A DNA stretch of 64,000 bases from Halofilum ochraceum. Lineage in GTDB: Bacteria; Pseudomonadota; Gammaproteobacteria; XJ16; Halofilaceae. The DNA lies in assembly GCF_001614315.2 (NCBI RefSeq), contig NZ_LVEG02000014.1, positions 1 to 64,000 of the forward strand, read 5' to 3'. The stretch's first letter is position 1. Every line of letters starts with the position of its first letter. Made by a program: the position numbers and the translations under genes. The notes under the pieces are model-generated. The model saw only the letters and a program-made list of their open reading frames with translations, ran no database searches and was not told the DNA's origin. This document shows positions 2,403 through 40,592 of the stretch, in pieces.

Positions 2403-4658
2403 TCAGACCTCCACTTCGACGCCATCAACTTTCTGGAAACCTCTCGGGAGGCGGCCACCGCGTTTGCCGCGTTCGCTCCAGTACTCTTCCAGTTCCTGCC
2501 TTCTGAGCGTGGTGTGGCGCTTGCCCGCATAGATGGTCAGTTTGCCTTTCTCCGGCACGGAGGCCAGCGCGACCATACGCTCTTCACCGCTGGTGAACTT
2601 CTTGCCCGGAATCCCGAGAATCCGTGAGCCTTTCCCCCTCGCCATCACGGGAATCTCATCGGCCGCAAACACCAGCAGATTCCCATTCGAATGAATCGCG
2701 CAGATCCAGTCGGTTTCCATGTTGTAGATAGGGCTCGGGATCAGGGGCTTGCTGCCCTTCGGAACGGTGAGCACGGCCTTGCCCGTGCGGGTGCGGGCCT
2801 GGATCTCGCCGAGGGTGGTGATGAAACCGTTGCCCGAGTCGGTGGCGAACAGATACGGCTGGTCGTCCCGGCCCATCAGCGTGGCGAGGAAGGTAGCGCC
2901 GTCCGGCGGCTTGAGTTTGCCGGAGAGGGGTTCGCCGTGGCTTCTCGCGCTCGGGAGTTTATGCGCGGGCAGTGTGTAGATGCGGCCGGTGCTGTCGAGG
3001 AACATGACGCTCTGGTTGGTCTTGCCCCAGGCGGCGTCCTGGAAGTCGTCGCCGGCCTTGTAGTTGAGCTTCTCGGGGTCGACGTCGTGGCCCTTGGCGG
3101 CGCGGACCCAGCCCTGTTTGGAGAGGACGACGGTGACCGGTTCGCTCGGGACGAGGTCGGTTTCCTGCAGGGCCTTGGCCGGGCCGCGTTCGGTGATGGG
3201 TGAGCGGCGTTCGTCGCCGAATTTATCGCCGGCGGCCTTGAGTTCCTTCTTGACCAGGGTTTTGAGGCGGTTCTGGGAGCCAAGGGTTTTCTCGATGTCC
3301 GCCTTTTCCTTTTCGAGTTCGTCCTGCTCGCCGCGGATCTTCATTTCCTCGAGCTTGGCGAGGTGGCGCAGGCGCAGTTCGAGGATAGCCTCGGCCTGGC
3401 GGTCGGAGAGCTGGAAGCGCTTCATGAGCGCGACTTTGGGCATGTCCTCCTCACGGATGATGCGGATGACCTCATCGATGTTGAGGTAGGCCGTCAGCAG
3501 GCCCTCGAGGACATGCAGGCGGTCCGTGACCTTGTCGAGGCGCCACTGCAGGCGGTTGCGCGTGGTCTCGGTGCGCCAGTCCAGCCACTCCTTCAACAGA
3601 TCGCGCAGATTGCGCACCCCCGGGCGGCCGTCCGTGCCGATGAGGTTCATGTTGACGCGGTAGCTGCGCTCAAGCTCGGTGGTAGCGAACAGGTGGTCCA
3701 TGAGCTGTTCGATATCCACACGGTTCGAGCGCGGGGTGATGACCAGGCGCACCGGGTTCTCGTGGTCGGACTCGTCGCGCAGGTCCTCGACCATCGGCAG
3801 TTTCTTCGCCTGCATCTGCTCGGCGATCTGCGCGAGCACGCGGCTGCCGGAGACCTGGTACGGCAGCGCGGTGATGACGACGTCGCCATTCTCCCGTTCG
3901 TACCGTGCGCGGGCGCGGAGCTGGCCGCCGCCGGTCTCGTAGATCTTCTTCAGGTCCGCGCGCGTGGTGATGACCTCGGCCGCGGTCGGGTAATCCGGGC
4001 CCGGCAGGGCCTCGACGAGTTCGTCGGTGGTCGTGCTCGGCTTCTCCAGCAGCATGACGCAGGCGTTCACGACTTCCTGGAGGTTGTGTGGCGGGACATC
4101 GGTGGCCATGCCGACCGCGATACCGGTGGTGCCGTTCAGCAGCACGTGCGGCACCTGTGCGGGCAGCAGCGTCGGCTCGTTGAGGGCGCCATCGAAGTTC
4201 GGCTGCCAGTCGACCGTGCCCTGGGGCAGCTCATCCAGCAGCACGGCGGAGAAGGCCGACAGGCGCGCCTCGGTGTAGCGCATGGCGGCGAAGGACTTGG
4301 GGTCGTCGGGCGAGCCCCAGTTGCCCTGCCCGTCCACCAGCGGATAGCGGTAGGTGAACGGCTGCGCCATGAGGACCATGGCCTCGTAACAGGCGCTGTC
4401 GCCATGCGGATGGAACTTGCCGAGGACGTCGCCGACGGTGCGCGCCGATTTCTTGTGCTTGGAACCGGATGACAGCCCGAGCTCGGACATGGCGTAGACG
4501 ATGCGTCGCTGCACGGGTTTGAGGCCGTCGGCGATGTGCGGCAGTGCGCGGTCGAGGATGACGTACATCGAGTAGTCGAGGTACGCCTTCTCGGCGAACT
4601 GGGAGAGCGGCTGGCTCTCGGATCTTGCGTCGAAGAGGTCGTCGGTGGATTCGGTCAT
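2403..4658 (-). CDS. parC: DNA topoisomerase IV subunit A
   Basis: The 751 residues (E. coli ParC has 752) form the DNA-cleaving subunit that, with ParE, decatenates daughter chromosomes. The active-site tyrosine is in [10 protein letters not shown], about Y128. The quinolone-determining segment reads [12 protein letters not shown] (Ser88, Glu92), the wild-type residues. The N-terminal breakage-reunion domain is followed by a coiled-coil region and a C-terminal beta-pinwheel from about residue 490. The start at [14 protein letters not shown] is chosen over an upstream extension rich in Pro and Arg that has no homology to the family. parE lies 3.3 kb upstream on the same strand; four smaller genes intervene. 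Confidence 0.97.
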
Positions 4659-4816
4659 CCGGGGGTCGCCTGGGTTGCGTTGAGTCGGCGCCTGCGGGCG
4701 CGTGGTCGGATTGGGGGATGATCTTCGCATGTGCGGAGATTTGGTTCACGGAGGTGTGTTTTTTCCGGGGCTTCGATTGGCGCGTGGGATTGCGACGGCA
4801 TGTGGGGGTCTTTGGC

Positions 4817-4875
4817 TGTCGGGCTGGAAGCCCGACCTACACCATTCCCCAACCCGACCCACGCCATTCCCCAAC
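4817..4875. repeat. REP-like palindrome, class GTCGGGCT..AGCCCGAC
   Basis: TGTCGGGCTGGAAGCCCGAC at 4817-4836 is followed by CTAC, so the opposite strand reads GTAG and then the stem, as in classical REP elements. Two near-copies of the tail CCATTCCCCAAC follow at about 4842-4853 and 4864-4875. The same class occurs at 40461-40521 and 59539-59669. It lies between the AbiEi-like gene and parC and could act as an mRNA-stabilising hairpin. The rest of 4659-4888 holds nothing else I can support. Confidence 0.75.
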
Positions 4876-4888
4876 GGATTGGCTGCAT

Positions 4889-5587
4889 TTACCCGGAGTA
4901 CGCCTGGACAGTGGAATCCGCGGCGGTCGGGATCAGGAGGTGGTTCAGCGAATCCGATACGCCGGCGGCCTGCGCGAGGCGTTGCAGGCGCGGCCGGTCG
5001 AGCAGATCGAGGTCGAGATCGTCACGGGGCGGCGGTGTGCGGCGGCTGTGGGGGCTCGCCGCGAGGTAGAGCCAGTCGATCAGCGCTTTCTCCGGGGTCG
5101 CGCGGGCATGCTCCCAGGTATCGCCGAGTTCGAGGCGATCTTCCGGGTTGCCGGCCTCGAGTATGCGCCGCGGTATCCCGTGGAACTGGAACATGCCGAT
5201 GCGGGTCGTCTGCCGGCCCAGTTTCGGAGGCGGGGCGGCCGCGTCCATTGGCACGACCGCCATGGTGGTGCGCACGGGGTTGTTGAGCACGCCGGCGTCG
5301 CCGAGCACCGTGTTCAGGGACACCACCGCCTCGGGCCGCAGCCAGGCGGCGGCATCGGCCGGGTGCCCGGGGCGGGCGCGAAACGCATTGAGGTAGAGGC
5401 CCCGCTGCACCGGCCGCAGGCGTTCCTCGGCCACGGCACCGCGAATCCAGTGCGTGAGGCTGCTAGGCGGTACGAGCTCACCGTCGCGGGCCGTTCGCGC
5501 GAATCGCGACAGCAGATCGCGGGTGAGCACGGGCGGAGCGTCGGTACGGGCGAGCGCGCGCTGGAGGTGAAGCTGCCAGGGCTTCAT
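4889..5587 (-). CDS. AbiEi-like antitoxin/transcriptional regulator
   Basis: The 232-aa protein has an N-terminal winged-helix region (RPVQRGLYLNAF matches the wing of AbiEi proteins) and a C-terminal domain with the family signature TPEKALIDWLYLA. AbiEi proteins repress their own operon by binding inverted repeats and neutralise the partner nucleotidyltransferase without direct contact (type IV toxin-antitoxin). Its ATG overlaps the stop codon of the AbiEii-like gene (ATGA at 5584-5587), so the two are translationally coupled. Order is unusual: the regulator is the second gene, whereas abiEi normally precedes abiEii. A longer arginine-rich upstream reading was rejected because it lies inside the AbiEii gene. 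Confidence 0.8.
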   Translation of the reverse strand: MKPWQLHLQRALARTDAPPVLTRDLLSRFARTARDGELVPPSSLTHWIRGAVAEERLRPVQRGLYLNAFRARPGHPADAAAWLRPEAVVSLNTVLGDAGVLNNPVRTTMAVVPMDAAAPPPKLGRQTTRIGMFQFHGIPRRILEAGNPEDRLELGDTWEHARATPEKALIDWLYLAASPHSRRTPPPRDDLDLDLLDRPRLQRLAQAAGVSDSLNHLLIPTAADSTVQAYSG

Positions 5588-6369
5588 TGTCCTTCTCCGG
5601 CATCCGCCAGCAACGCCTCGGCGTACTCGCCGACCCGGAGCTTCATGGCCTCCCATTCCTCCTCGTCGATGCGCTCGGCGACGTCGTCGGGCAGCGCATC
5701 GCGCAGTTCGTCGAGGTATCGGTGCCAGTTCAGTTCGTCGAGCCGGGCCCAGAGCAGGTCTACGGGTGGGCGATCTTCGATACCGGCACGACGCACCGCC
5801 CATGCGATCTGCTCCGCGCTCGGTCGTTCGCCGCTGTCCATCAACAGATCGAGGTCATAGACGTCTCGCGGTGCTGCACGCCCGAGCAAGGCGGCGAGTT
5901 TGGTCGTGGCCAGCGTCGCGTCGTCGTAGATGTCCACCCAGAAGCGGGTACCGCCACGGCGCGCGAGCGGCTCGAAACGCTGCTGGACGACCTGGCCGGG
6001 CGCCACGCGCGCGGGGTCGCGCGAAACCTCGACCTCGACGTGGACCGGGTGCCCTGCAGCGTCGCGGAAGTTTACCTTCCAGCGGGGGCTGGCCTCGGCT
6101 TTGCCGGGCTCATGGACGCGGAGATCGGTGAGCCGCAGGCCGCGGGCGGCGTGCTCGATCGCATGTTGCACGGTGTTGTGCAGGGAGTCGGCGCTTCGTT
6201 TGGGGTTGGTGAAGTCGAGGTCGAGGTCTTTCGTCATGCGCTCGTTGCCGAAGCGCGCGCGCATGGCGCCCCCGCCTTTCAGCACGAAGCCCTCGCCGCG
6301 CTTGCGGAACAGCGCGGCAGCCAGGCGTTCGAGGAATTGTTCGCGGATGTTGTCCACGGTTGCGCCCAT
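5584..6369 (-). CDS. AbiEii-like nucleotidyltransferase toxin
   Basis: The 261-aa protein belongs to the AbiEii/AbiGii (COG2253) nucleotidyltransferase family. FVLKGGGAMRARFG (residues 28-41) is the GG-x-x-R nucleotide-binding motif and MTKDLDLDF (45-53) supplies the metal-binding aspartates D48 and D50. KLAALLGRAAPRDVYDLDLL is the conserved C-terminal block. Such toxins transfer nucleotides, in studied members to tRNA, and cause reversible growth arrest or phage abortive infection. The start codon lies inside the left arm of a large palindrome whose loop holds a TATAAT box, so the leader is only about a dozen bases and no ribosome-binding site is visible. The function is known for the family; activity here is inferred. 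Confidence 0.85.
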   Translation of the reverse strand: MGATVDNIREQFLERLAAALFRKRGEGFVLKGGGAMRARFGNERMTKDLDLDFTNPKRSADSLHNTVQHAIEHAARGLRLTDLRVHEPGKAEASPRWKVNFRDAAGHPVHVEVEVSRDPARVAPGQVVQQRFEPLARRGGTRFWVDIYDDATLATTKLAALLGRAAPRDVYDLDLLMDSGERPSAEQIAWAVRRAGIEDRPPVDLLWARLDELNWHRYLDELRDALPDDVAERIDEEEWEAMKLRVGEYAEALLADAGEGQ

Positions 6370-6410
6370 TAAGTCGTTTATGCCGATTATATTAGCATAA
6401 ATGACTTAAT
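6368..6410 (-). promoter_or_regulatory. Palindromic operator-promoter of the AbiE-like operon
   Basis: Bases 6368-6383 and 6395-6410 are 16-base inverted arms (15 of 16 pair) separated by 11 bases. The loop carries a perfect -10 box, TATAAT, on the minus strand (plus-strand ATTATA at 6386-6391). No convincing -35 box is present. Transcription would start inside the distal arm, just before the ATG at 6369-6367. AbiEi repressors are known to bind inverted repeats at their own promoter, so this is the natural operator. The tract is AT-rich compared with its surroundings. Confidence 0.8.
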
Positions 6411-6530
6411 CGCGCTGTTTCATGGCGTCCCGCGCCATGAACGGCTGCACCGTGTCTCGGCTCGGTGCGTTCGAGATGAGGCTGGTTCGATCCGGGTTGA
6501 TCCGCGTTGCCCGGTTACGGGCCGACACCG

Positions 6531-7463
6531 TCACTCTCCGTAGCCGCCGTCGATGCCCTCGGCTTCGGGGTCGTCGATGTTGGGGACGCGGCCGGTGGGG
6601 ACGCCGCCGGCGGCTTCGTCGCAGTGGCGGGGCTGGTCGTCGAAGTACATGTGGGGGCGGAAGGCGCGCAGGACGTTGCGTTTGGCCATGCCGCCGAGGA
6701 AAAAGGTCTCGTCGATCGACACGCCCCACTCCATCAGGGTCCGGATCACGCGCTCGTGGGCCGGGCTGTTGCGGGCGGTGACGAGCGCGGTGCGAATGCT
6801 GGGGCTGTTCGGGTCAGCGCTCTTGCGCACGTCCGCGAGGCTCTTGAGCAGCTTGGCGAACGGGCCCTCGGGCAGCGGGCGGCGCGCGTGCTCGATCTCG
6901 TGGGCCTGGAAGGCCTCCAGACCGTGCTCGCGGTAGACGCGGTCGGCCTCGTCGGAGAACAGGACCGAGTCGCCGTCGAAGGCGATGCGGATCTCTTCGA
7001 TCTCTTCATACGGTTCGGTCGGCACCGAGTACAGCAGCGCGGAGGCGACGCTGGACGCCAGGCCGCGCTCGACGTCGGCCGGGTCCTGGGAGAGGAACAG
7101 GTCGACGTCGAAGGCGTGCAGGTAAGCCGCCAGCGGGTTGCCGCCCGTGAGGGCCGCGCGGGTGATGTCTAGGCCGTAGTGGTTGATCGAGTTGAAGATG
7201 CGCAGGCTCGTCTCGGACGAGTTGCGCGACATGATCACCACCTCGACCCGCCGGCGCTCGGGCTCCAGCGAGTTCAGGCGCAGCAGGGCCTTGGCCAGCG
7301 GGAAGCCGGTGCCGGGCGCCAGGATATCCGCCTCATGGTCGAGCTGATACTGCCGGTACGCCTCCAGGCCCTGGGTCTGAAAGAGATGATCCTCTTCCGA
7401 GAGATCGAACAGGGCGCGGGAGGAAATCCCGACCACGAGGTATTGGCTGAGATCTACGGCCAT
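6531..7463 (-). CDS. Cytosolic 5'-nucleotidase, cN-I-like family
   Basis: The 310-aa protein belongs to the 5'-nucleotidase family PF06189, related to animal NT5C1A, which removes phosphate from nucleoside monophosphates, mainly AMP. Recognisable blocks are LVVGISSRALFDL near the start (haloacid-dehalogenase-like motif I region), EVVIMSRNSSETSLRIFNS, RIAFDGDSVLFSDEADRVY and ETFFLGGMAKRNVLRAFRPHMYFDD. It is probably cytoplasmic; no signal peptide is seen. The start at MAVDLSQYL is preferred because upstream in-frame sequence is the CACGAATG-type repeat, not protein. It follows the GxxExxY element and parE on the same strand. Confidence 0.85.
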   Translation of the reverse strand: MAVDLSQYLVVGISSRALFDLSEEDHLFQTQGLEAYRQYQLDHEADILAPGTGFPLAKALLRLNSLEPERRRVEVVIMSRNSSETSLRIFNSINHYGLDITRAALTGGNPLAAYLHAFDVDLFLSQDPADVERGLASSVASALLYSVPTEPYEEIEEIRIAFDGDSVLFSDEADRVYREHGLEAFQAHEIEHARRPLPEGPFAKLLKSLADVRKSADPNSPSIRTALVTARNSPAHERVIRTLMEWGVSIDETFFLGGMAKRNVLRAFRPHMYFDDQPRHCDEAAGGVPTGRVPNIDDPEAEGIDGGYGE

Positions 7464-7478
7464 GATCAGGTCTCGAAA

Positions 7479-7967
7479 GAACCACGAATGAACACGAATG
7501 AACACGAATACTTCATAAAACCACCCGTTTCCATTGCAGCCTCGATTGCCGGAAGTTCAGCAGTAAACCAGCCTGAAGGCCGGTTACGCGAAGATAGTTG
7601 ATCACCTGACCGTACTCTGTCTCTCCGATCTGGTCGATCACTTTGGTTTCAACAATCAGTCCATCAAACACTACAAGATCCGGAACAAACTGCCCCACTG
7701 ATCTGCCGCGGTATACCACGTCGAATCGCGGCTGCTGGTGATACGGTATCCCCTGATACTCCAGCTCGACGACCAGCGCATTCTCATACGGCTTTTCGAG
7801 CAACCCACCGCCAAGATGATTCAACACCCGCATTGCACACCCGACAACCCGCCGGGTTTCGTCCCACATAACGCCCTGAACTCCTTCGCTCTCCTCCATG
7901 TTGCCTCCCTGCAACCCGCCCCGGTTTTGACCTTCTATTCGTGTCCATTCGTGTTCATTCGTGGTTC
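7479..7967. mobile_element. Minimal inverted-repeat element enclosing a GxxExxY gene
   Basis: Bases 7479-7510 and 7936-7967 are 32-base inverted repeats with 31 of 32 positions matching, made of three CACGAAT units. Between them lies almost only the GxxExxY gene: its stop codon is 2 bases from the left repeat and its start is 36 bases from the right repeat. The right repeat ends 7 bases from the parE stop codon and the left one 15 bases from the 5'-nucleotidase start, so the unit sits exactly between two genes. No target-site duplication is obvious. Related inverted repeats without a gene occur at 19810-20128 and 23887-24267. Mobility is inferred from structure only. Confidence 0.6.
7513..7899 (-). 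CDS. GxxExxY family protein, PD-(D/E)XK-like fold
   Basis: The protein is 128 aa from the ATG that follows a strong GGGAGG ribosome-binding site; a second in-frame start lies 15 bases upstream. The family signature is GGGLLEKPYENAL (G-x2-E-x2-Y form). QFVPDLVVFDGLIVETKVI supplies the D-x(n)-E-x-K pattern of PD-(D/E)XK nuclease folds (PF13366/TIGR04256). Family function is unknown. Members are often multicopy and intergenic. Here the gene fills the space between 32-base inverted repeats, which suggests that it either mobilises them or travels with them. The active-site pattern looks intact. Confidence 0.85.
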   Translation of the reverse strand: MEESEGVQGVMWDETRRVVGCAMRVLNHLGGGLLEKPYENALVVELEYQGIPYHQQPRFDVVYRGRSVGQFVPDLVVFDGLIVETKVIDQIGETEYGQVINYLRVTGLQAGLLLNFRQSRLQWKRVVL

Positions 7968-7974
7968 GATCTTT

Positions 7975-9870
7975 TTACCCCAGGATCTCGGCCAGATTGC
8001 CCCGTTCCTCCAGCCAGGCGCGGCGGTCGGCGACGCGTTTTTTGCCGAGCATCATATCGAGCAGGGTGTTGGTGTCGTCGCCGTCTTCGACGGTGAGCTG
8101 GACGAGGCGGCGGGTGTCGGGGGCCATGGTGGTTTCGCGGAGCTGGAGCGGGTCCATTTCGCCGAGGCCCTTGAAGCGGGTGACCTGGGGTTTGCCCTTC
8201 TGTTTCTCGGCGGTGATGCGCTCGAGGACGCCGTCTTTTTCCTCATCGTCGATGGCGTAATAGATGTTCTTGCCGATGTCGATGCGGTACAGCGGCGGCA
8301 TGGCGACGTAAACGTGGCCGGCGGCGACGAGCGGGCGGAAGTGGCGGACGAACAGGGCGCACAGCAGCGTGGCGATGTGGGCGCCGTCCGAGTCGGCATC
8401 CGCCAGGATGCAGAGCTTGTTGTAGCGCAGCTTGCTGAGATCCGCGTTGCCGGGCTCGACGCCGAGGGCGACGGTGATGTCGTGCACCTCCTGGCTGCCG
8501 AAGACCTCTTCCGGTTTGATCTCCCAGGTGTTCATGATCTTGCCGCGCAGCGGCATGACGGCCTGGAACTCGCGATCGCGCGCCTGTTTGGCGGAGCCGC
8601 CGGCGGAGTCGCCCTCGACCAGGAACAGTTCGGTGCGGCTGACGTCCTGGCTGGTGCAATCGGCGAGCTTTCCAGGCAGCGCGGGGCCGCTAGCGACCTT
8701 TTTGCGCTGCACCTTGCGGGCCTTCTGCTGGCGACGCTGGGCGGTGCTGACCGCGAGCTGGGCGAGCGCGTCGCCGGACTGCGGGTGACGATTGAGCCAC
8801 TGCTCGAAGTGGTCGCTGACCACGCCGGAGACGAACGCCTGGCAGGAACGTGAGGCGAGCTTCTCCTTGGTCTGGCCGGCGAACTGCGGGTCCTGCAGTT
8901 TGACGGACAGGACCCAGCTCGCGTGCTCGGTGACGTCATCGCCCGTGATCTTCACGCCCTTGGGCAGCAACCCGCGCCGGTCGGCGAACTCGCGCAGGGC
9001 CTCGGTGAGACCGCTGCGCATGCCGTTGACGTGCGCGCCGCCGGCAGGCGTCGGCACGAGGTTCACGTAGCTCTCACTGAAGCCCTCACCACCTTCCGGC
9101 AACCAGGTCACGGCCCAGTCGGCGGCCTCGTGCTCGCCCGTCATATGGCCCACGAAGGGCTGCTCGGGCGTGCGCGGGTAGCCGCTGACGGCCTGCACCA
9201 GGTAGTCGGCCATGCCGTCTGCGTACTGCCACTCGATCTTCTCCTGCGCCGCCTCGTCGTGCCAGGTGACGAGCAGGCCCGGGCAGAGCACGGCCTTGGC
9301 GCGCAGGAGCTGGGTCAGGCGCTGCTTGTTGAACTTCACGCTGTCGAAGTACTTCGCGTCCGGCAGGAACTTCAGGCGCGTGCCGGTATTGCGCTGACCG
9401 ACTTTGCCGACGACCTCGAGCTCCGTCTTTTTCTCGCCGCCGGCGAAGCTCATCGCGTATTCCTTGCCGCCGCGCTTGACCGCGATCTCGAGGTGACGCG
9501 AGAGGCCGTTGACCACGGAGACGCCGACGCCGTGCAGACCGCCCGAGAAACGGTAGTGGCCCTCGGAGAACTTGCCGCCCGAATGCAGCGTGGTGAGGAT
9601 GACCTCGACGCCGGGCTTGTTGAGCTGCGGGTGGTTATCGACGGGCATGCCGCGGCCGTCATCGATGACTTCGATCGAGCCGTCCGCGCCGAGGGTCACG
9701 TCGATGCGTTTGGCGTAGCCGGCGAGCGCCTCGTCGACGGCATTGTCGATCACCTCCTGGGCGAGGTGGTTCGGGCGCATGGTGTCGGTGTACATGCCCG
9801 GGCGCTTGCGCACGGGCTCGAGTCCGGAGAGGACCTCGATCGCGGACGAGTCGTAGGCGGCTGTGGTCAT
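7975..9870 (-). CDS. parE: DNA topoisomerase IV subunit B
   Basis: The 631 residues (E. coli ParE has 630) form the ATPase subunit of topoisomerase IV. The GHKL ATP-binding site is seen as QEVIDNAVDEA (about 39-48), DDGRGMP (70-75) and GGLHGVGVSVV (110-120). The TOPRIM domain has VEGDSAGGSA from about 418, PLRGKIMNTWE, and the metal-binding aspartates in ADADSDG (about 491-495). The start at MTTAAYDSS is the family start; upstream in-frame sequence is non-homologous. A TACAAT box on the minus strand at 9929-9924 may be its -10 element. The stop codon is next to the inverted-repeat element. Confidence 0.97.
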   Translation of the reverse strand: MTTAAYDSSAIEVLSGLEPVRKRPGMYTDTMRPNHLAQEVIDNAVDEALAGYAKRIDVTLGADGSIEVIDDGRGMPVDNHPQLNKPGVEVILTTLHSGGKFSEGHYRFSGGLHGVGVSVVNGLSRHLEIAVKRGGKEYAMSFAGGEKKTELEVVGKVGQRNTGTRLKFLPDAKYFDSVKFNKQRLTQLLRAKAVLCPGLLVTWHDEAAQEKIEWQYADGMADYLVQAVSGYPRTPEQPFVGHMTGEHEAADWAVTWLPEGGEGFSESYVNLVPTPAGGAHVNGMRSGLTEALREFADRRGLLPKGVKITGDDVTEHASWVLSVKLQDPQFAGQTKEKLASRSCQAFVSGVVSDHFEQWLNRHPQSGDALAQLAVSTAQRRQQKARKVQRKKVASGPALPGKLADCTSQDVSRTELFLVEGDSAGGSAKQARDREFQAVMPLRGKIMNTWEIKPEEVFGSQEVHDITVALGVEPGNADLSKLRYNKLCILADADSDGAHIATLLCALFVRHFRPLVAAGHVYVAMPPLYRIDIGKNIYYAIDDEEKDGVLERITAEKQKGKPQVTRFKGLGEMDPLQLRETTMAPDTRRLVQLTVEDGDDTNTLLDMMLGKKRVADRRAWLEERGNLAEILG

Positions 9871-9990
9871 GGGATCGGTCGAGACTCCATATGCGGTGGT
9901 TTTCTGGCCGGCAGGCCCAGGATATTGTAAACGACCCGGGGCCGGAACGTGGTGGCCCGATTCACTGGACCCACCGGAGTACACGGGCGC

Positions 9991-11130
9991 ATGACACGTC
10001 GGAACCGCGCACGCGCCTGGTGGGTGCGCCTGCATCTCTGGCTGGGCCTCAGCGCCGGCGCGGTCTTCGCCCTGCTCGGGGTGACCGGCAGCGTACTCGT
10101 CTTCGACCACGAACTCGACGCCCTGTTGCACCCCTCATTGTTCGCTTCCGGGCCGGAATCACGCGCGATCGCCTCTTCCGCGGCGATTGCCGTGGCGGAA
10201 GATGCCCTGCCGGCGAGTCACAGCGTCGCTTGGCTTTCCTGGCCTGGTGATGCCCGCGATGTGTTCCGCGCCTATGGCGGCCCACCCGACGACCGGTTCG
10301 GCCGGCTCGTCACTGTCGACCCCGCCAGCGGCGAGGTCCTCGGCGCGCGCGCCGGCGATGGCGGAGTGCTGCGCTTTATCTACGATCTGCATTTTCAGTT
10401 GCAGCTCGGCGCCGGGGGCCAGACGGTCGTCGGGATCGTGGGCGTGCTGATGCTGTGCTCTCTCGGTTCCGGCCTGTATCTGTGGTGGCCGCGCAAACGC
10501 CATTGGCGGACGGGGCTGACGGTGCGTCGCGGTGCACGGCCTCAGCGGCGGGATTTCGATCTGCATCGCGTAACGGGCATTTACGGCGCCGCCCTGCTGC
10601 TGGCGATGAGCGGGACCGGCATCTTCATGGCCCTGCCGGATTACACCGAGCCGGTGGTCGAGCTGTTCAGCCCGATCACGCCGCGGATCGGCACGATCGC
10701 CCCGAACGGGGCTCGCGATGCGACTGATATCGATGTGGATACGGCCGTCGACATCGCACGGAACCACTTATCGGGCGCCCGCGTGACAGGGGTGGGCATC
10801 CCGCATCGCGGTGCAGGAACGTACCGCGTAGCCCTCAGTGAGCCGGAACATCCGCGCGACAGCGCGGGCCGTTCGTATGTGCGTGTGGATCGCCATACCG
10901 GTGAGGTCCGAGCGGTGCGAACCTGGGCCGGCATGACCGCCGCGGACCGATTCCTGGACTGGCAGTTGCCGCTGCACAACGGCGAGGCATTCGGGCTGAT
11001 CGGGCGGCTGATCGTATTCGTGACGGGCCTGTTGCCGCTGGCACTGCTGGTCACAGGATTCCTGATCTGGCGCCATAAACGCCGTGCGGCGTACAGACAG
11101 CGGGAAAAACGACCCGATTCTCCGTCGTAG
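9991..11130 (+). CDS. PepSY-associated transmembrane protein
   Basis: The 379-aa inner-membrane protein belongs to the PepSY_TM family (PF03929). Four hydrophobic segments are visible: about 13-38, 150-170, 205-225 and 340-362. Soluble PepSY-type stretches lie between them, for example the region containing RLVTVDPASGEVLGAR. Relatives are often linked to siderophore-iron uptake or ferric reduction, but nothing nearby supports a specific substrate. The start at MTRRNRARAWW has a CGGAGT ribosome-binding site 10 bases upstream. It diverges from parE. The stop codon TAG is contributed by the GTAG head of the first REP unit of the following tandem array. Confidence 0.8.
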   Translation: MTRRNRARAWWVRLHLWLGLSAGAVFALLGVTGSVLVFDHELDALLHPSLFASGPESRAIASSAAIAVAEDALPASHSVAWLSWPGDARDVFRAYGGPPDDRFGRLVTVDPASGEVLGARAGDGGVLRFIYDLHFQLQLGAGGQTVVGIVGVLMLCSLGSGLYLWWPRKRHWRTGLTVRRGARPQRRDFDLHRVTGIYGAALLLAMSGTGIFMALPDYTEPVVELFSPITPRIGTIAPNGARDATDIDVDTAVDIARNHLSGARVTGVGIPHRGAGTYRVALSEPEHPRDSAGRSYVRVDRHTGEVRAVRTWAGMTAADRFLDWQLPLHNGEAFGLIGRLIVFVTGLLPLALLVTGFLIWRHKRRAAYRQREKRPDSPS

Positions 11131-19790: not shown

Positions 19791-19809
19791 CTGGTTCGGA
19801 ACGGCATTT

Positions 19810-20128
19810 AGAACCACGAATGAACACGAATGGACACGAATGCTGCCGCAGGGCTCTTATCGCTCCGGGGAGCTTCGCTGAAATGTCTGCGCGAATGGAG
19901 TCTCGTTTGAACCACAGATAGACACAGATGAACACAGATAAGGTCAAAAGCGGCGATGAGGTGAGATCACCCGCTCGCGGTCTGCCATCGACCGCCGTTG
20001 ACTTTTATCTGTGTCCATCTGTGTTCATCTGTGGCTCTCATCCCCGCTTCAGGACCATCACCCCTTTCAGCGAAGCTCCAACCACATCACAGCGCCCTGC
20101 GGCAGCATTCGTGTTCATTCGTGGTTCT
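19810..20128. repeat. Nested inverted-repeat locus (CGA-type outer, CAG-type inner arms)
   Basis: Outer arms lie at 19810-19854 and 20094-20128. They are identical except that the right arm lacks one GGACACGAAT unit. Subterminal 15-base arms at 19869-19883 and 20065-20079 (GGAGCTTCGCTGAAA) also pair. Inside are second arms at 19909-19940 and 20006-20037 with the same layout, but CAG replaces CGA at each variable position. Pairing continues inward toward a GC-rich loop near 19965-19985. The whole 319 bases can fold into one long interrupted hairpin. The ten-base AAGGTCAAAA next to the inner left arm (19940-19949) also occurs next to the right repeat of the GxxExxY element. No protein-coding gene is present. 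Confidence 0.85.
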
Positions 20129-20136
20129 AGCCCGTC

Positions 20137-23870: not shown

Positions 23871-23886
23871 GGAATCACGACTGAAA

Positions 23887-24267
23887 GAACCACGAATGAA
23901 CACGAATGGACACGAATGCTGCCGCTTGGCTCGTTGAGCGTTCGGGAGCTTCGCTGTGATGCTGTGGGGAATTTTGCCCGTTCTGATAACCAAAAAATGA
24001 ACAAAAGATATACAAAAAATAGTAATGCGCTGGATTCGAGGCTGTGGTCACGGTCAGCCATCAACTATTTTTTGTCCATTTTTCGTTCATTTTTTGGTTA
24101 TGCAGTTTGCACGTCATACACGACGCCATAACAGCGAAGCTCCCTGTAGCTCAGTAGGCCAAGCGGCAGCATTCGTGTCCATTGCTCGGCGCGTCCATGC
24201 GCCTCGCCCCTTTGGGGCTGGCGCGAAGATTCGCTCCCGGCGAATCTTTCGTGTTCATTCGTGGTTC
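23887..24267. repeat. Nested inverted-repeat locus (CGA-type outer, A-rich inner arms)
   Basis: The outer left arm 23887-23930 pairs with the right arm 24158-24267 once a 66-base insertion in the right arm (24184-24249) is removed. Subterminal arms GGGAGCTTCGCTGT (23944-23957) and their complement (24131-24144) match perfectly. The inner arms, 23986-24023 and 24064-24101 (38 bases each), repeat the same plan with AAAA at the variable positions. The order of parts is the same as at 19810-20128. The locus lies between valS and the DUF2970 gene and contains no credible coding sequence. Confidence 0.85.
24184..24249. repeat. REP-like insertion within an inverted-repeat arm
   Basis: This 66-base segment interrupts the right CACGAATG arm after CCATT, and the arm resumes with CGTGTTC. 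It consists of small palindromes: GCGCC/GGCGC arms around CCCCTTTGGGG, then GATTCGC/GCGAATC. The left arm of the locus has no such insert, so the insertion is younger than the inverted repeat. Confidence 0.7.
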
Positions 24268-24274
24268 TCTCTTT

Positions 24275-28279: not shown

Positions 28280-28526
28280 GTTGTCGTTATCTCTCGCAGA
28301 GACGCGGAGGGCGCCAAGAGCGCAAAGCGGAGAAGGGCAAACTCCGGACACTTGCCACATTGACGTAGGCCGGCTTGCGGCCAAAGGGAGCCAGCCGGCG
28401 ATGTCGCCACGGATACACCGGTGCGCCGGCTGTTGCCTTCGGCAAAAGCCGGCCTACTTGCTATCGATTATCGAGTTTCTCTGCGCTCTTGGCGCCCTCC
28501 GCGCCTCTGCGAGAAAAAACGACAAC
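28280..28526. repeat. Inverted-repeat locus with CGCAGAG..GGAGGGCGCC arms
   Basis: Outer arms at 28280-28330 and 28476-28526 (51 bases, about 43 matching) contain CTCGCAGAGRCGCGGAGG and GGCGCCAAGAGCGCA. Inner arms at 28365-28400 and 28424-28456 are a GTAG-headed REP (GTAGGCCGGCTT with CCAGCCGGCG). The layout, a palindrome inside a palindrome, parallels the loci at 19810 and 23887 although the sequence differs. A solo partial outer arm is at 54825-54860. The locus fills the bamB-der gap (28201-28566), in which no gene is seen; der must be transcribed through or from within it. Confidence 0.85.
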
Positions 28527-40406: not shown

Positions 40407-40460
40407 CACCCGCCTCGCGCCCCGGAACAAAGAAACCTCTGACGATGGGCAACGCTGCAG

Positions 40461-40521
40461 GTCGGGCTTATAGCCCGACAGATCAGGGGCTTACGACTGT
40501 CGGGCTATAAGCCCGACCTAC
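40461..40521. repeat. Paired GTCGGGCT REP elements with conserved linker
   Basis: GTCGGGCTTATAGCCCGAC (40461-40479) and TGTCGGGCTATAAGCCCGAC plus CTAC (40498-40521) are separated by AGATCAGGGGCTTACGAC. The linker is the reverse complement of CTCGTAAGCCCCTGATCT at 59564-59581, so the same composite was copied to two loci. It lies between convergent suhB and secF and can act as a bidirectional terminator or mRNA-end stabiliser. Confidence 0.85.
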
Positions 40522-40592
40522 ATCACTCCCCAACTCGCTGCCCGGTTTTCGTCAGGGCTTCCCTGCATCCCACCGCCAGGGCACCACACTGA

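Follow-up and report, generated by a model that had tools for sequence, protein, structure and literature searches.

A GxxExxY nuclease gene between inverted word-bearing arms: evidence for a single-gene mobile cassette in Halofilum ochraceum and other prokaryotes

A 64,000-nt stretch of the Halofilum ochraceum genome (NZ_LVEG02000014.1, hereafter the window; genome G000, 3.64 Mb) carries at positions 7479-7967 a 489-bp unit in which a single GxxExxY gene is enclosed by inverted arms. The reading that we favour, with a probability of roughly two in three, is that this unit is a mobile cassette with one gene, coding for a lambda-exonuclease/Cas4-like nuclease that works on the cassette's own arms, and that it has MITE-like gene-less relatives.

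The left arm of the unit (7479-7510, plus strand) contains three CACGAAT words reading inward (GAACCACGAATGAACACGAATGAACACGAATA), and the right arm (7936-7967, minus strand) is complementary to it at 31 of 32 positions (97%) at a separation of 425 nt. The arm pair scored 59, compared with a maximum of 30 in shuffles of the same flanks, confirming the near-perfect 32-bp inverted repeats that a sequence-only reading of the window had noticed around one 128-aa gene. This gene (7513-7899, minus strand) is the only one in the cassette. The unit has parE (7975-10131; stop at 7975) upstream in the direction of transcription and a gene for a 5'-nucleotidase (PF06189; 6531-7463; start at 7463) downstream, exactly the position described before, between parE and the next start codon; all three genes are on the minus strand. 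Just inside the right arm is the subterminal sequence AAGGTCAAAA (7925-7934, minus strand). Its recurrence beside an inner arm at 19940-19949, also pointed out before, is real, and it is common to the cassette, the gene-less units L022 and L023 and the ACAGAT inner arms. The cassette arm itself recurs throughout the genome, 159 matches being counted on both strands together.

The earlier assignment of the product as a PD-(D/E)XK-like GxxExxY protein was borne out by profile scores of 127.9 bits against TIGR04256 (cut-off 35, E=2.3e-37) and 121 against PF13366, PDDEXK_3 (cut-off 22, E=4e-35). The catalytic motif is intact (E22, D61, E71xK73 and Q85xxxY89; residue numbers follow alignment A1), and its residues were invariant or nearly so in aligned sets of 13 and 38 sequences. 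Sequence searches retrieved no relatives of solved structure. The AlphaFold2 model (pLDDT 92) had as nearest solved folds SSO0001, of the Cas4 family, and lambda exonuclease (best Foldseek E 1.5e-3, with modest scores); further folds, also at modest scores, were a Holliday junction resolvase and, at rank 17, the homing endonuclease domain I-Bth0305I. Motif and model together predict a member of the RecB/Cas4 QxxxY class of PD-(D/E)XK nucleases. The trpE-trpG cassettes described below gave a dN/dS of 0.08 between G000 and G001, indicating that the protein is under purifying selection.

The second, and only other, GxxExxY gene of the genome is located at the trpE-trpG junction between 42-nt inverted arms of a different sequence (...CTCGCCAAGACACCAAGCGCGCCAAG). 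A framed gene with an arm sequence of its own is a strong argument against framing by chance. The survey covered 238 distinct GxxExxY loci from relatives, from the phylum and from many other phyla, archaea among them, a gene being scored as framed when its inverted repeat was reached by none of 200 dinucleotide shuffles (p<=1/201). Framing was found at 196 of the 238 loci (82%; median score 41), and a weaker word-bearing repeat was present at 11 of the 42 loci unframed at this threshold. Among neighbouring open reading frames, drawn from 80 of the GxxExxY loci, 13 of 178 (7%) were framed (odds ratio 59, p=4e-58), and in several of these the arms carried words of the type seen at GxxExxY genes. 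UPF0102 genes from the same genomes, whose products are PD-(D/E)XK-type nucleases about as long as GxxExxY, were framed in none of 28 cases (median score 19; p=5e-19). These results indicate that inverted repeats flank GxxExxY genes far beyond chance, as had been proposed from the window. The AACCA-NNN-ATG type of repeat put forward in that proposal is a real arm type but only one among many dialects of a common grammar.

This grammar usually consists of three C[AG]CNRNN words placed 8-10 nt apart, with a spacing mode of 9 nt; three words were present in 125 of 172 left arms. The most frequent words were CACGAAG, CACAGAG, CGCAGAG, CACGGAG, CGCAAAG, CACAGAT, CGCCAAG and CACGAAT. The words read inward at 176 of 196 loci and outward at 7, and the median element length was 489 bp. 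Word identity was 0.85 within an arm as against 0.67 between arms (maximum 0.686 in 500 permutations). Arm similarity was correlated with protein identity (Mantel r=0.27, p=0.001), and the correlation persisted when labels were permuted within genomes only (0.270 against 0.137 +/- 0.020, p 0.001). More than one dialect was found in 29 of the 36 genomes having more than one labelled framed copy, and cassette pairs from the same genome were about as unlike in their arms as pairs from different genomes at equal protein identity. The last letter of the word, mostly G or T, required 15 changes on the protein tree and 42 after shuffling. The dialect belongs to the cassette or protein lineage and not to the host genome. 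The correlation of dialect with protein shows joint inheritance of gene and arms; taken alone, it does not establish that the protein recognises the arms. Candidates for word reading are the residue following GxxE (K or S) and a handful of other columns, all of which vary with the clade; covariation of residue and word was inseparable from phylogeny, the supported branches yielding just 2 independent pairs for the clearest word letter.

GxxExxY genes occur in many phyla, and among the genomes searched single ones carried as many as 15 copies; relatives in viral contigs, sought as a check for phage carriage, numbered only three. In the phylum sample, at least three matches to a strict three-word pattern were found in 17 of 37 genomes bearing GxxExxY and in 11 of 262 without it (p 7e-11). 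Inside one family the same pattern gave 15 of 22 and 4 of 17, respectively (p 0.01).

The occupancy of orthologous sites was compared between related genomes. In a sister species of the same genus (G002) the parE site is empty, parE directly adjoining the nucleotidase gene, whereas in G001 the site is occupied by a cassette with CACAGAT arms and a protein only 60% identical, within flanks 90-94% identical. The trpE-trpG cassette, on the other hand, is common to G000 and G001 throughout (89%). In 23 genomes of another genus searched at the trpD-trpC junction, about 14 were occupied, one of them (G093) by a gene remnant only, and in five (G097, G063, G406, G071 and G161) the junction was continuous, indicating an empty site. 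There the cassette begins at the trpD stop, often supplied by the left arm (TGAACCGC), and ends just before trpC. Empty sites, and framing of GxxExxY genes elsewhere, were the two things whose absence would have refuted the sequence-only reading, and both were found. Presence and absence at orthologous sites, as expected of a mobile element, show by comparison that the cassette is mobile as a unit. At this junction cassette identity did not follow TrpC identity (Mantel p 0.45, r 0.01); the TrpC proteins of G101 and G404, for example, are 95% identical and their cassettes less than 60%. Cassettes at one site have thus been replaced or re-inserted. The insertion sites are junctions between genes, with the genes on both sides intact, and the empty sites whose sequence was read (parE in G002 and trpD-trpC) carry no solo arms. 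No large target duplication was seen in the gene-less units of the own genome or in the parE and trpD-trpC flanks, the relatives' flanks (70-75% identical) being too diverged to reveal small ones or the exact junctions. In the trp operon, two separate junctions have received cassettes, each in one of two distantly related groups (trpE-trpG, L029; trpD-trpC, L368-L397).

Related repeats without a gene were also present in the window, as had been reported, but they number three and not two. The first is a nested palindrome at 19809-20129, with outer CACGAAT arms (19809-19857 and 20091-20129) and an inverted pair of inner CACAGAT arms (19909-19941 and 20005-20037). As a single strand, its 317-nt stretch 19811-20127 is predicted to form a long hairpin (z -15), and related copies of about 320 bp are dispersed in G001. 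The second, at 23883-24271, has outer CACGAAT arms, the right one split by another palindromic repeat, and inner arms of the AACCAAAAAATGAAC type (23986-24023 and 24064-24101). The third, previously overlooked, lies at 28280-28526 and has 48-nt arms, 92% complementary, with the words GCAGAG, GCGGAG, GCCAAG and GCAAAG in the same grammar as the other arms. About 23 matching arm pairs read from the own genome enclosed no gene and formed units of 167-436 bp. The majority are nested palindromes with a second arm dialect inside, in the order outer CACGAAT arms, CTGCCGCAGGGC and GGAGCTTCGCTGA boxes, and inner arms of the CACAGAT or A-rich AACCAAAAAATGAAC type, and they are predicted to fold as long hairpins when single-stranded. 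The simplest units, L022 and L023, carry RAARGTCAAAACCG just inside the arm as the gene-bearing unit does, with small differences, a feature that a derivative of the gene-bearing unit would keep. The suggestion that the gene-less units are derivatives is thus supported by L022 and L023, but most of them form a separate nested family and not simple gene deletions. Descent of the gene-less units from the gene-bearing one is an inference, and the best explanation of those with the same arms is that they are MITE-like relatives of the cassette. Comparison of G000 with G001 and G002 near 19.8 and 23.9 kb gave no clean junctions for gene-less polymorphism.

At 24116-24250 of the window and near position 690 of L023, right arms are interrupted or adjoined by GC-rich palindromic repeats of another, unrelated kind (GCTCGGCGC...). 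In the other genus, right arms in G404 and G093 (L374 and L382) are likewise broken or bordered by GC-rich palindromic GACGTGCAGGATGCAC..., as if hairpin repeats inserted into arms.

The gene-less palindromes could also be an independent REP/MITE-like family whose centres are invaded by GxxExxY as a homing-type nuclease, the arms then being its target and not part of the element. The large excess of gene-less arms over genes in the own genome, the nesting of gene-less units inside each other and the presence of I-Bth0305I in the fold search are in keeping with this explanation. We nevertheless consider it unlikely, since arm dialect tracks the protein and not the genome, even under the host-controlled Mantel test, since several dialects coexist in one genome, and since the empty sites that were read carry no solo arms. 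PD-(D/E)XK-core homing endonucleases do resemble the cassette as small mobile nuclease genes whose site is occupied or empty between relatives. The usual seat of a homing gene is an intron, an intein or a conserved gene, and homing genes are not known to have inverted dialect arms. The cassette was not assigned to this class, its sites being intergenic junctions with both flanking genes intact.

Somewhat less probable still is that an unrelated mobility enzyme encoded elsewhere recognises the arms, the nuclease gene being a passenger retained for some different function, for example defence. The cassette lacks a transposase, and some genomes (G090, G161 and G059) have arms without a GxxExxY match. 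Arms in such genomes are consistent with decayed or trans-mobilised repeats, and this explanation fits them as well. PF05635 four-helix genes are likewise found between comparable tandem-word inverted arms, so that a single machinery could serve both cargoes. Against it, the grammars of the two cargoes differ, spaced C[AG]CNRNN words for GxxExxY and tandem heptamers for PF05635, and among GxxExxY cassettes the dialect goes with the protein. The PADLOC defence models gave no match, and the cassette was accordingly not placed in any known anti-phage defence system. The idea that REP/BIME-kind intergenic palindromes of the host flank the gene by accident, which the high copy number of the arm sequence in the own genome might suggest, is refuted as the main explanation by the UPF0102 and neighbour-ORF controls (0/28 and 7% framed against 82%), and also conflicts with the different arms of the trpE-trpG cassette and the constrained polarity and length.

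In a separate observation, PF05635 genes were framed by tandem-heptamer inverted arrays at 7 of 11 loci: L222 (G000:C20:45712-46017), L212, L214, L221, L223, L228 and L229. The heptamers, for example GGGCCAA repeated four times, TGAGATG and GTGAGTA, follow a grammar different from that of GxxExxY arms; PF05635 is possibly a second family of single-gene cassettes. The arrays may also be linked to the cyanobacterial STRR heptamer repeats.

Under the favoured reading of a self-directed cassette, the unit would insert between the stop of one gene and the start of the next, without a large target duplication, so that host genes stay intact. The 125-aa nuclease would most likely recognise the arm dialect of its own cassette, usually three phased 7-bp words, and then cut or nick at the arms. 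Host repair or recombination would copy or swap the cassette into new places, and an occupied site could be taken over by other cassettes. Gene-less units with the same arms would behave like MITEs, moved in trans now or once. Binding and cutting of the arms by the nuclease would thus drive movement, and the nuclease itself would be the mobility enzyme, making the cassette autonomous. That each protein lineage has its own dialect, and that the empty sites are clean, speaks for one self-directed unit. No known transposase chemistry was recognised in the cassette, and the genomes with many arms and no GxxExxY match suggest that something else may move gene-less units.

The nearest known kinds are REP/RAYT systems, insertion sequences with their MITEs and the intervening sequences (IVS) of 23S rRNA, and the cassette differs from each in a defining feature. 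REP/REPIN sequences with their IS200/IS605-like RAYT resemble it in having one small gene for a DNA-processing enzyme, adjoining short inverted repeats, many gene-less copies and several repeat classes per genome. However, RAYT is an HUH (Y1) single-strand transposase, whereas the only gene of the cassette encodes a predicted PD-(D/E)XK nuclease. REPs are palindromes of 20-40 nt (PMC3733652); cassette arms, unlike REPs, are not hairpins alone but usually three phased words inverted across a gene, and no inverted repeat was reported inside a single arm of the window cassette. A REP/RAYT system was rejected on both the protein and the missing REP hairpins. Insertion sequences and MITEs share the terminal inverted repeats around one gene, the dispersed gene-less relatives and the presence or absence between relatives, but the cassette has no DDE, HUH, Tyr or Ser transposase and no large target duplication was seen, and its arm sequence varies from copy to copy within one genome. 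It was not classed as an insertion sequence with a transposase of known class, GxxExxY being its sole gene. The 23S rRNA IVS encoding S23p/IVP (PF05635), about 430 bp long with one ORF and terminal inverted repeats, has long been proposed to be mobile (PMC4990558). It is similar to the cassette in size, single ORF and terminal repeats, but its protein is a four-helix bundle mostly studied within rRNA genes, whereas the cassette occupies protein-coding junctions. Lambda exonuclease, Cas4 and RecB-type nucleases share the predicted fold, PD-(D/E)XK with the QxxxY motif; those enzymes work together with partner proteins, in recombination or in CRISPR adaptation, whereas GxxExxY is shorter and without a partner gene.

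A search of the open-access literature found no prior description of mobility for GxxExxY, PF13366 or TIGR04256, or of six arm sequences. The cassette is best described as an inverted-repeat mobile element, and there is a fair chance that its enzyme class makes it a new class. The wider proposal of a new class of transposable element in many bacterial phyla and archaea, with a lone PD-(D/E)XK nuclease, no transposase, three-word arms in its own dialect and nested gene-less palindromes as non-autonomous derivatives, seems to us evenly balanced. A role in the cassette would give GxxExxY, a family without an assigned function, one that is immediately testable, and would explain a class of dispersed related repeats in many bacterial genomes. 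The hundreds of natural enzyme-target pairs with differing dialects would also provide ready material for studying how a 125-aa nuclease may select its DNA.

Other repeats and gene differences were observed along the way. An AbiEii-type toxin gene (PF08843; window 5584-6369) and the neighbouring ORF 4889-5803 are missing at the equivalent place in G001, which has instead a 146-bp gene-less CACAGAT unit (window 4658-6528 compared with L042 2836-3030). A REP-like inverted repeat of 36 nt, its loop 15 nt long (GTCGGGCTATAAGCCCGAC), occurs at window 40446-40532, and a 9-mer tandem array (CGCTGAGTC) occupies G083:C5:3-135, at the end of the contig.
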